From: Clostridiales bacterium
GTDB lineage: Bacteria > Bacillota > Clostridia > Peptostreptococcales > T1SED10-28
Direction: 5' to 3'
DNA: 52,484 nt
Assembly (NCBI GenBank): GCA_007120165.1
Contig: SKOH01000028.1
Span: 1 to 52,484 of the forward strand
Positions 47,106 to 50,888 of this stretch are shown piece after piece; position 1 is the first letter of the stretch; the number at the start of each line of letters is the position of its first letter. The notes beneath the pieces are model-generated. The model was given only the letters and a program-made list of their open reading frames with translations. It made no database searches and was not told where the DNA came from. Both the position numbers and the translations under genes were made by a program.

Positions 47106-47123
47106 CCACAGCCTTTGCTGTGG
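47106..47123 (-). terminator. aroE terminator
   Basis: CCACAGC/GCTGTGG seven-base-pair stem with four-base loop; the minus-strand side runs into seven T (47105-47099). 40 bases after the aroE stop. Confidence 0.92.
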
Positions 47124-47163: not shown

Positions 47164-48048
47164 TTAAAACAAGGAGGTTTTGATAGTTTGGAGGGGCATA
47201 TCCTCTCCCGTCCAAATCTTAAAAGCCAAAGCCCCTTGCCAGAGAATCATCCCGGACCCATTGATGGTTTTGCACCCTGCTTTTTCTCCAAGTTCTAAGA
47301 GAGCTGTTTTTCCTGGAGTATAGATTAAATCGGAAACAATCAGGCCTTTGGGCAGGAGATGTAAATCCTTGATAATACTATTTCCGATTTCGTCTCCCAT
47401 CCCAACAGGGGTACAATTGATCAATATATCAGCCTTCGGCAATTCTTTATGGATGCTTTCTTCATGGAGTTTAGAAGCTGAAGCCTGACAGTTTTTACTA
47501 ATTTTATTAATGGTAAAAACAATCCTGCGGGCTTTTTCAATATTTCGATTCAGTATCGTAATCTTACCGGCTCCTGCTCGGGCGAGTTCTACTGAAATAC
47601 CGGTCGCGGCGCCTCCAGCCCCCAGCAAGAGAAAACTTCGGCCTTCAATATTTACTCCCTTGTCCTGTAGGTCGGCAACATAGCCAAGTCCATCAGTATT
47701 ATAACCGACTAACTGACCATTTTCATTGTGTACGGTATTTACAGAACCGATCAGTTCCGCTTCGATGGATAATTTATCTAGATAAGGGATGATTTTTTGT
47801 TTTACCGGCATGGTTACATTAAAACCTAAAACATTAAGGGCTCTCATTGCGTCCACTGTGGATTTTAGATTGTCCCCGTTAGAAATAAAGGCCATGTAGG
47901 CATAATTCAAGCCCAGAGTCTCAAAGGCCAGGTTGTGCATAGCAGGGGATATGCTGTGGTCAACCGGGTCACCCAGCAGCCCCAAAAGCCTGGTATTTCC
48001 TGATATGCTAACTTTTGTTGCAACACTTTTTTCCTCAGTCTGCTTCAT
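47164..48048 (-). CDS. aroE: Shikimate dehydrogenase
   Basis: NADPH-dependent reduction of 3-dehydroshikimate to shikimate; 294 residues. Substrate domain with the SISPAMHN motif, catalytic Lys in NVTMPVKQ, NTVHNENGQLVGYNTDG, then the nucleotide-binding loop GAGGAATG and the NRN that selects NADPH (ILNRNIEKA). The N-terminus has about 17 extra residues before GLLGDPVDHS. ATG behind AAAGGAG plus TTTTTAGGA. Follows aroQ (gap 48 bases), the preceding pathway step. Confidence 0.95.
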   Translation of the reverse strand: MKQTEEKSVATKVSISGNTRLLGLLGDPVDHSISPAMHNLAFETLGLNYAYMAFISNGDNLKSTVDAMRALNVLGFNVTMPVKQKIIPYLDKLSIEAELIGSVNTVHNENGQLVGYNTDGLGYVADLQDKGVNIEGRSFLLLGAGGAATGISVELARAGAGKITILNRNIEKARRIVFTINKISKNCQASASKLHEESIHKELPKADILINCTPVGMGDEIGNSIIKDLHLLPKGLIVSDLIYTPGKTALLELGEKAGCKTINGSGMILWQGALAFKIWTGEDMPLQTIKTSLF

Positions 48049-48096
48049 TCCTAAAAACTCCTTTAAATAGAATTTCTCAGTATCCAGGGAAGTCCT

Positions 48097-48537
48097 TTAG
48101 GTTTCAATCGCTCTTATAATAGCTCTTAAACCTAGTAAATAGCTGTCAACTCCGAAACCGCTTATTTGTCCAGTACAAAGGTCTGCAAACACCGATTTCC
48201 GGCGAAATTCTTCTCTTTTGTAGATGTTCGACATATGAATTTCTACGATGGGCACCTTTAGAATTTCTAATGCATCCCGAATACCGTAGCTGTAATGGGT
48301 CCATGCGCCTCCATTAATCATTACCCCGTCCACTTCTTCAAGAAAACCTTGGTGAATTTTTTCACACATCTCCCCCTCATGGTTGGTTTGAAAAAACTCC
48401 AGCTCCACCCCCAGGTCTTTTCCTAAGGTTCTAAGACGATCATTAATCTCCTCCAAAGTAACTTTCCCATAAATTCTTGGGTCTCTTTTCCCAAATAAGT
48501 TATGGTTGATTCCGTGAAGCATCAAAATTTTTTTCAC
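48097..48537 (-). CDS. aroQ: 3-dehydroquinate dehydratase, type II (divergent)
   Basis: Dehydrates 3-dehydroquinate to 3-dehydroshikimate; dodecameric flavodoxin-like fold, 146 residues. The catalytic residues of the type II family are in place: Arg18 and Tyr23 in GKRDPRIYG, His81 in the THYS motif, His101 in IHMSNI, Arg108 and Arg112 in REEFRRKS. Two usually invariant spots differ: GPNLN is GINHN, and NPGAY is NGGAW. It is probably active, but of a divergent clostridial branch. GTG start behind GGAGGTGGAG. Lies between the M20-like gene and aroE. Confidence 0.9.
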   Translation of the reverse strand: MKKILMLHGINHNLFGKRDPRIYGKVTLEEINDRLRTLGKDLGVELEFFQTNHEGEMCEKIHQGFLEEVDGVMINGGAWTHYSYGIRDALEILKVPIVEIHMSNIYKREEFRRKSVFADLCTGQISGFGVDSYLLGLRAIIRAIET

Positions 48538-48600: not shown

Positions 48601-49572
48601 TTATCCATTTCTTTTGGACTGCTCATCCCTAAGATATTCTTCAATGGTTTTAGAAGGGTTATAATCTTTCAAAATCTTTCTGGTCTTCTTAGCGTTATCA
48701 TATAGCAGATCCACAATCGTAAGAGCCAATATCTTGGCAGGTATGAGATAGGCGGTATCCTTATCTTCCAAGATAAAATCATTACTTCCCCGTTCTCCTC
48801 TGACGCCCCCTGCCAACGGTTGGAATGTAGGCATGATTTGCGACAAGGCATGCATATTGATGAAATCTTTTTGCTCCACTTCTTCTGTTAATTTCAGCTG
48901 TGCTTCATTATAAAACAGCTTAGCATTCTCCAGAAGAATCGGACCAATACCCTCACAGTCAGGAACCGAGGGATATTTGGGGGAGAGTATCATTTTGGTT
49001 TGGGTATCCCCAAGGTCCATATTTTGAATGGACATTGCCAGGTCTATTTCATCCAGACCCTCTCTGGCCAGGAGTTCGTTGATGCCATATACGTGATGTA
49101 TTTTTCCTTCCTCTATCAGTTTATTGCGAAAATCCAAATCCACACCCTCTTGAGCCGGTACAGCAATGAACGTTACTTTGCCGTCAAGATTTTGAACTGC
49201 GTGGGATTTTATCAGTCCAAAGGCTACAGCAATCATTATGCCTACTTGATGGTTGTTTCCAGCATTATGGACGATTCCATCTTCATTAGCCTCTGGATGT
49301 GACGGGTCCACCCCGGCATCCATCGCCGCAATTACGGCTAGGTTGGGTCCTCGCAGATCCTCATTGATTGTGGCTTTACATCCGGTCAGGGCAATATGGT
49401 CTTCCACTTCCAAATCCATTTTTTCAAATATTTTACCGATCTTTTTGCTCAGATACTCTTCCTTATAACCAAGTTCCGGATGATTTTGTATTTCCCGTAC
49501 AATTCTCAGGATCTCCTTTCGATGATCATCAATACTGTTACATATCAGTTCTTTTAAGATTTTCTTCGACAA
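48601..49572 (-). CDS. M20-peptidase-like protein lacking its metal ligands
   Basis: About 323 residues of the M20 amidohydrolase fold (REIQNHPELGYKE start; AAMDAGVD where enzymes have AELDALP). The metal motif HxCGHD reads HNAGNN, so the Cys and His ligands and the Asp are lost; PAEE reads PAQE, and later His ligands are not found. The lid domain is also shortened. Likely not a metallopeptidase; perhaps a binding protein or an enzyme of changed chemistry. ATG at 49590 has no ribosome site and sits at the predicted +1; TTG at 49572 follows AGGAGGG and is preferred. Heads the M20-aroQ-aroE group. Confidence 0.82.
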   Translation of the reverse strand: MSKKILKELICNSIDDHRKEILRIVREIQNHPELGYKEEYLSKKIGKIFEKMDLEVEDHIALTGCKATINEDLRGPNLAVIAAMDAGVDPSHPEANEDGIVHNAGNNHQVGIMIAVAFGLIKSHAVQNLDGKVTFIAVPAQEGVDLDFRNKLIEEGKIHHVYGINELLAREGLDEIDLAMSIQNMDLGDTQTKMILSPKYPSVPDCEGIGPILLENAKLFYNEAQLKLTEEVEQKDFINMHALSQIMPTFQPLAGGVRGERGSNDFILEDKDTAYLIPAKILALTIVDLLYDNAKKTRKILKDYNPSKTIEEYLRDEQSKRNG

Positions 49573-49596
49573 ATCCGATCCCTCCTCCATAGCATT

Positions 49597-49613
49597 ATAT
49601 TATTATTATACCA
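49597..49613 (-). promoter_or_regulatory. -10 elements upstream of the M20-like gene
   Basis: Two overlapping candidates on the minus strand, both TATAAT, within 12 bases of each other. The -35 is not clear. Transcription from here would begin next to the ATG at 49590, which supports the TTG start further in. Confidence 0.45.
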
Positions 49614-49643
49614 CATTCTAGAATACTAAGTATTTTCAAGGTT

Positions 49644-50888
49644 TTACGACTGCGTTTTGATATTTTTCGGGTTTACTACCTTTCCCTGGAAAAAATATAT
49701 TTCTGCAGATTTACCCAAGGCATATGTGGCGGAGCTGGCAATTCCTCCGGAGATAAATACTCCCCCTATTGGAATCATTTTTGTCAACTGATGGGCTAAT
49801 GATCGAAAACCCAGTGCTGCACCGATGTTAAGCCCCATGGCAGCCAGGTACTCATGGGCGGTTTCTAATTTCATTTCTTTCCCTGCCAGGGTTCCAATAA
49901 GTACGATCATTAATAGTTGTAATGGGGTCAGTACAAAAAAATCTGCAACGGGAATCGGAGAGGAACCTACCCCACCGGCAACAGTGGAAAAACGTTTAAT
50001 AATCGATGTGGTAAACTTTTTCATCTGGGCTGTATGATTTTTCACTTGTAAATAATCAAGTTTAGCTTTTTCCGGCAGCACCTCCCCGATAAATTCTTCT
50101 AAAGTCTCGATATTCCAAAGGTTCCCTGGGTAAGTGCTTACAGGAATGATCGATAAATAATGTTTTTCTCGAAGAATGTATCCTCGGGAAGGATGATTAA
50201 GATTGATAATTTTCACTTTCGGTTCTTCGATTTTGAAAACTTCACGAATCAAATAGTTCATACCCTGGGAAATCTGACCCTGCTTTTCCGGGTCCTCTAT
50301 GGGAAGTCCGGGATTTCCTAAAATATCTACGTTACTGAGGATTGTAATTATTGGAATTTGTATGTTTTGTTTTTGGAAAATGCTTTGAAGTTCTTCCATT
50401 ACTAATAAATCGTTGGACATTGTCCGTATTTCTTTGATGTTTACCACATGCAAAAAAACATCCGGCAGATATTGAAGAATTTCTTTTTTCAGTTGTTTGA
50501 CCGCATCCTCTTTGTCCTTCTCTTTGCTGCTGTAAACATCGAAAAAGCCCCGTGTATCGATCATCCTCCATGTGGCTCCATATTCCTCAAAGGGCACGTC
50601 ATAAATAGTGGATTTTTGTGTCTGCGGTATTACCGGGTTAACCTTTGCTATCTCTTTTCCGACTAAGGCATTAATCAGAGAGGATTTCCCATGACCTGAT
50701 CGTCCGATGGCCATCATTACCGGAGGTCGACTTTCCTCAATCATTTTCCGGATGTCATTCAACACCGGACCTAGAACAAAATTTTTAATATAGGTTTTGT
50801 TTTTAGAAGACATTTTAATCGGCAGCTGTTCAAATAAATCATCAATATCTTCCAGTAGCTTTTGAGTTTTTTCTTTATCAAACCCCAT
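49644..50888 (-). CDS. Dynamin/Era-like GTPase with hydrophobic C-terminal (DUF697-like) region
   Basis: 414 residues. G1 loop GRSGHGKSS at 62-70, G3 DTRGF at 111-115 (DxxG kept), and G4 reading SNVD at 185-188 in place of NKxD, which may weaken guanine selectivity. The last ~110 residues hold glycine-rich hydrophobic stretches (about 325-345 and 385-405) of the DUF697 type, suggesting membrane contact or insertion. The relatives (YeeP/YkfA-like and bacterial immunity-like GTPases) have unknown roles. ATG behind AAGGGGG. No partner gene adjoining. Confidence 0.82.
   Translation of the reverse strand: MGFDKEKTQKLLEDIDDLFEQLPIKMSSKNKTYIKNFVLGPVLNDIRKMIEESRPPVMMAIGRSGHGKSSLINALVGKEIAKVNPVIPQTQKSTIYDVPFEEYGATWRMIDTRGFFDVYSSKEKDKEDAVKQLKKEILQYLPDVFLHVVNIKEIRTMSNDLLVMEELQSIFQKQNIQIPIITILSNVDILGNPGLPIEDPEKQGQISQGMNYLIREVFKIEEPKVKIINLNHPSRGYILREKHYLSIIPVSTYPGNLWNIETLEEFIGEVLPEKAKLDYLQVKNHTAQMKKFTTSIIKRFSTVAGGVGSSPIPVADFFVLTPLQLLMIVLIGTLAGKEMKLETAHEYLAAMGLNIGAALGFRSLAHQLTKMIPIGGVFISGGIASSATYALGKSAEIYFFQGKVVNPKNIKTQS

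Follow-up and report, generated by a model that had tools for sequence, protein, structure and literature searches.

What does a protein of the M20 hydrolase fold do once its metal centre has been erased, and does its position ahead of two shikimate-pathway genes say anything about its job? The question is raised by a reverse-strand gene in the window, by which we mean the whole 52,484-nucleotide stretch of clostridial DNA analysed here. A sequence-only reading of this stretch had proposed that selection keeps the protein for a function other than the ancestral one, possibly a regulatory, chaperone or ligand-binding role tied to its aro neighbours. The gene and the features that define its start and its losses are the following:

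48601..49572, reverse strand: M20D-like pseudoenzyme gene, TTG start, 323 codons plus stop
49580..49588, reverse strand: Shine-Dalgarno-like block before the common TTG start, conserved in four of four genomes
49252..49269, reverse strand: HNAGNN, bridging Cys changed to Ala (Ala/Gly/Lys/Gly in the orthologues) and ligand His to Asn
49147..49158, reverse strand: PAQE, catalytic Glu changed to Gln, adjoining ligand Glu kept
49024..49026, reverse strand: Gln183, His at this position in 20 of 20 relatives
48943..49008, reverse strand: scar of the lid (dimerisation) domain, limits approximate
48787..48789, reverse strand: Gly262, His at this position in 20 of 20 relatives

The mechanical list of open reading frames holds a longer frame, 48601-49590 on the reverse strand. 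We prefer the TTG at 49572, the end also used in the sequence-only reading, because the Shine-Dalgarno block and the TTG are common to all four orthologues and G003 has ATT at the position of the upstream ATG. Among 118 related genomes, 91 of which gave some match at E 0.001, orthologues were found only in G000, G001, G003 and G004, all from one uncultured Clostridia genus (completeness 98, 100, 99 and 79%), and the three other orthologues are 74-76% identical to the window protein. None was found in the fifth genome of the genus (G002, 63% complete) or in the one other genome of the family (G005, 80% complete). Two sediment MAG records that carry the gene in a scan of named genomes look the same as two of the four. 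A search of the order at E 1e-25 matched 59 of 393 genomes, these four and 55 others whose listed frames are longer, except in G027, where the frame is cut by a contig end. No lid-less copy outside the genus was found among the matches in 393 genomes of the order (E 1e-25), 391 of the class (1e-25) and 299 of the phylum (1e-40), sets that overlap and in which five short or cut frames were read closely and the longer class and phylum frames were taken as listed. Four of those five are HxCGH types interrupted where the contig ends or the frame breaks, and no frame was recovered for the fifth, a second piece of G027. Within the searches made, the gene is restricted to one genus.

We aligned the four orthologues with 20 intact relatives, leaving out two with truncated starts (L037, L039) and near-duplicates. 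All 20 relatives carry Cys104, His106, Glu141, Glu142, His183 and His262 (window numbering), positions that in the orthologues are occupied by Ala/Gly/Lys/Gly, Asn, Gln, Glu, Gln and Gly. In all four orthologues, four of the five metal-ligand positions are changed, with Glu142 kept, and the general base Glu141 is Gln; positions 183 and 262 we take to be metal-ligand His, after M20D structures. All 24 sequences keep Asp85 and His102, and of 51 core sites at which the relatives do not vary, 15 carry a change in every one of the four orthologues. The erased metal centre and the Glu-to-Gln change in PAEE, both claimed in the sequence-only reading, therefore recur in all four orthologues against an intact background, and the changes His183 to Gln and His262 to Gly extend them. 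Its derivation of HNAGNN from HxCGHD stands for the motif itself and for the lost Cys and His, but the final D-to-N change is not specific to the lineage, the last residue being Asn in 17 relatives, His in two and Ser in one. The lid it described as shortened is indeed altered, but a whole domain has been deleted: the relatives carry about 115 extra residues near window residues 189-210, in one of them matched by Pfam M20_dimer, and all four orthologues lack them. A bridging Cys and a dimer are described for an M20D aminoacylase (PMC11511702).

Up to E = 1 the window protein matches no Pfam M20 family, and its match to TIGR01891 (amidohydrolase), confined to the first half of the protein, scores 54.4 bits against a cut-off of 153.75. 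Its sequence matches in the PDB are hydrolases of the M20 type, and in the printed alignments HNAGNN stands opposite HACGHD and PAQE opposite PAEE. An AlphaFold2 model (mean pLDDT 88.5, pTM 0.91) superposes on HmrA with Z 28.9 and 2.5 A over 265 residues; the top structure matches, HmrA, a plant IAA-amino acid hydrolase and PM20D2, are tied (Z 28.9, 28.8 and 28.7). The core fold is intact in the model and the frame is open in four of four genomes, in agreement with the earlier claim that both are kept. A common fold by itself demonstrates no function. By descent and core fold the gene product is an M20D (HmrA/PM20D2-like) amidohydrolase core, one that falls below the TIGR01891 cut-off and lacks the bridging Cys, the ligand His, the catalytic Glu and the lid.

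Selection has not let go of this gene. In six orthologue pairs pN/pS is 0.14-0.20, within the range of the neighbouring genes, which upholds the view that it is kept for a non-ancestral function despite the lost catalytic residues. The four orthologues form one clade (support 100/100) nested among intact enzymes, with a stem branch of 1.68 changes per column and end branches of 0.06-0.24, a tree that reads as a burst of change followed by constraint. We compared invariance along the protein with that in 17 identity-matched quartets of intact relatives, which are drawn from 11 sequences, overlap and are not independent. Residues 1-82 are 87% invariant (50-61% in the quartets) and residues 273-312 are 82% invariant (53-72%), whereas the active-site loop, residues 83-108, is only 54% invariant against 73-85%. 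Segments 1-82, 183-188 (5 columns) and 273-312 lie above all 17 quartets, 83-108, 151-182, 189-214 and 215-247 lie below all of them, and 109-150 and 248-272 are unremarkable. As judged from these sequences, the highest constraint is now at the N- and C-terminal segments and no longer at the old active-site loops.

Part of the conservation of residues 1-82 may act on DNA or RNA, because synonymous divergence is low there: pS over codons 1-82 is 0.29-0.53, at or below every other segment in each pair, and pS over the first 40 codons is 0.33, the lowest of 124 windows over seven genes. The Shine-Dalgarno block and these 40 codons (49453-49588, reverse strand) make up a stretch that is unusually conserved, synonymous sites included. 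An RNA element was considered for this 5' part and rejected, since it folds no better than most shuffled sequences do (z 1.22 for the window and -1.00 for G004); Rfam gave no match for it.

The surroundings of the gene were read from these features:

49644..50888, reverse strand: GTPase gene (MMR_HSR1; DUF697 below cut-off), upstream and adjacent in four of four genomes
49605..49616, reverse strand: extended -10-like block (TGTGGTATAAT) upstream of the pseudoenzyme gene, conserved in four of four genomes
48097..48537, reverse strand: aroQ (DHquinase_II), adjoining the pseudoenzyme gene in three of four genomes
47164..48048, reverse strand: aroE, beside the pseudoenzyme gene in two of four genomes
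47106..47123, reverse strand: terminator-like hairpin CCACAG..CTGTGG at the end of the unit, of the same kind in the other three genomes

As had been noted, aroQ and aroE follow the gene in the window, and no terminator was found between it and aroQ there. The order gene-aroQ-aroE is found in G000 and G003, gene-aroQ in G004 and the gene alone in G001, which has aroQ-aroE on another contig; in G004 aroE lies in a separate aro cluster, as we read the ORFs. An obligate link to aro genes, examined in six genomes of the family, was rejected on G001, with no adjacent aro gene, and G004, with aroQ only. The check proposed earlier, whether proteins of this variant always adjoin aro genes, thus comes out negative, and a copy with the normal ligands in an identical neighbourhood, the case that would have spoken against a special function, was not found. 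A hairpin of the CCACAG..CTGTGG type followed by a T run closes the unit in all four genomes, although the terminator scan scored the window copy only and the promoter scan did not score the TGTGGTATAAT block. Since the upstream block, the Shine-Dalgarno block and the unit-end hairpin are found in four of four genomes, the gene seems to head its own unit. The aro genes look like optional additions to this unit and their adjacency looks incidental.

Comparison of the aro copies themselves (window 47164-48537; L082, L083, L084) showed that aroE beside the pseudoenzyme gene is 46-53% identical to copies elsewhere in the family (G001, G005, G004) and aroQ 62-68% (G001, G005); because these identities are low, the two aro sets may have separate histories. 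GTPases of the upstream type, with a weak terminal DUF697 match, are sporadic, occurring in 9 of 297 genomes of the order at E 1e-20, four of them from the genus. The relatives in the five further genomes are 26-44% identical, and no pseudoenzyme orthologue was found with them. The GTPase was considered as a functional partner and set aside: its adjacency in four of four genomes is part of a larger syntenic block, and because the block is syntenic and the GTPase occurs without the pseudoenzyme, adjacency is no evidence of a functional pair.

Taken on its sequence, the gene is a maintained pseudoenzyme, because the losses occur in all four orthologues, purifying selection is strong and the predicted fold is intact; catalytic residues have been lost in a conserved, selected gene, which is what the term describes. 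Its job is very probably non-enzymatic, as most metal ligands, the catalytic residue and a whole domain are gone. We give roughly even chances to a specific reading, in which a pseudoenzyme that descends from an M20D amidohydrolase with a lid now acts by binding through its terminal segments.

The main rival to protein binding is a ligand-sensing pocket, in which the altered site would bind the ancestral N-acyl amino acid or dipeptide uncut and the protein would signal to a partner or sequester the ligand. Of eight positions of the former active site, seven do not vary among the four orthologues, amide side chains occupy three lost positions (N106, Q141, Q183), and D85, H102 and E142 are retained. 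Against this, loop 83-108 is less conserved than in every matched quartet and there is no longer a lid to close over substrate. The invariance of the pocket is also weak evidence, because seven given sites would all be invariant by chance with a probability of about 0.05 at 65% background invariance. We regard such a sensor as unlikely.

The idea carried over from the sequence-only reading, a regulator or scaffold whose product assists AroQ or AroE, draws on probable cotranscription with aroQ in three of four genomes and on the finding of no terminator between the two genes in the window. However, aroQ and aroE both adjoin the gene in only two of four genomes, aroQ alone in one and neither in one. 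Purifying selection acts on the G001 gene (pN/pS 0.14-0.16 against G003 and G004) with aroQ-aroE elsewhere, and aroE of G004 sits apart in its own cluster, all of which leaves a shikimate-linked role improbable. We judge a rebuilt enzyme, in which H102, D85, E142 and the amides would serve a site with one metal or none, equally hard to credit: those three residues are kept in all 24 sequences, but the general base is gone along with four ligand positions, and in DapE lid removal alone abolishes activity (PMC4012986). Decay at an early stage, which the long stem branch and the 15 changed core sites might suggest, is already contradicted by the selection test on these sequences, the frame being open in all four genomes with high synonymous divergence and pN/pS as in the neighbours, and is the least probable reading.

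If the protein does act by binding through its termini, it would no longer hydrolyse amides or form the lid-mediated M20 dimer, and would most likely hold a protein partner through segments 1-82 and 273-312. A small ligand may still bind in the old pocket, where Asn106, Asn107, Gln141, Glu142 and Gln183 are invariant, and the gene would be transcribed from a start of its own, with aroQ and aroE as optional passengers. We found no co-occurring gene beyond common synteny to support the binding role. In DapE, deletion of the dimerisation domain abolished activity and the truncated Vibrio cholerae enzyme kept its dizinc site (PMC4012986); because lid loss alone inactivates DapE with the dizinc core kept, two separate steps to inactivity appear to have been taken here.

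Several known systems resemble parts of this picture. HmrA of Staphylococcus aureus (M20D; PDB 3ram) and human PM20D2 (7yh4), whose core folds match the model equally well, are also the best sequence matches of the orthologue-group profile, but HmrA keeps HACGHN and PAEE and both chains are of lid length, whereas the window protein has lost the residues and the lid. The intact Clostridia M20D relatives, with frames mostly of 433-508 aa and often beside DUF3100, are 31-40% identical over the common core in the 20 that were aligned and are alike at the start and in the C-terminal helices; all 20 keep Cys, His, Glu-Glu, His, His and the lid, and the pseudoenzyme does not. The transferrin receptor 1 ectodomain, a metal-less M28 descendant that works by binding, shares the broad fold (Z 21.5-22.0), but it belongs to another family, and the receptor has additional domains. 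Pseudoenzymes as such are well known among metallopeptidases. The model also matches lid-deleted DapE constructs (4onw, 4op4, 4h2k), M20 cores without a dimerisation domain; these are engineered, and the truncated V. cholerae form keeps its dizinc site (PMC4012986). No M20 pseudoenzyme with the lid also lost was found in the literature by titles and abstract openings, and the available text of a review of inactive metallopeptidases makes no mention that we found of the M20 peptidase family (PMC11266112).

The ancestral setting appears to have been different. Among 21 genomes outside the genus with matches below E 1e-30, at least 15 have DUF3100 within about 2.5 kb of the hydrolase and two more have it on another contig; none was found in the five genomes of the genus. 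We infer an ancestral DUF3100-hydrolase pairing that was lost in the pseudoenzyme genus. At L024:7472-10144, L029:7326-9974 and similar loci three genes stand in a row, coding for a DUF3100 protein, for a 156-aa product that Pfam does not match and for an intact M20D hydrolase. This row hints at a role for DUF3100, which we would guess to be a transporter.

A fuller account, which we hold with somewhat less than even confidence, is that an M20 core naturally without a lid was turned into a dedicated binding protein in one Clostridia genus: its metal site, general base and dimer domain went on one stem branch, amides took the place of several lost residues, and constraint moved to the N- and C-terminal segments, which would dock on a partner. 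Genes of this kind should not be named amidohydrolases, nor tied to aro genes by position. The genus would open the change from enzyme to binding protein to stepwise study, since it offers four orthologues, a well-marked stem branch and outgroups that are intact.
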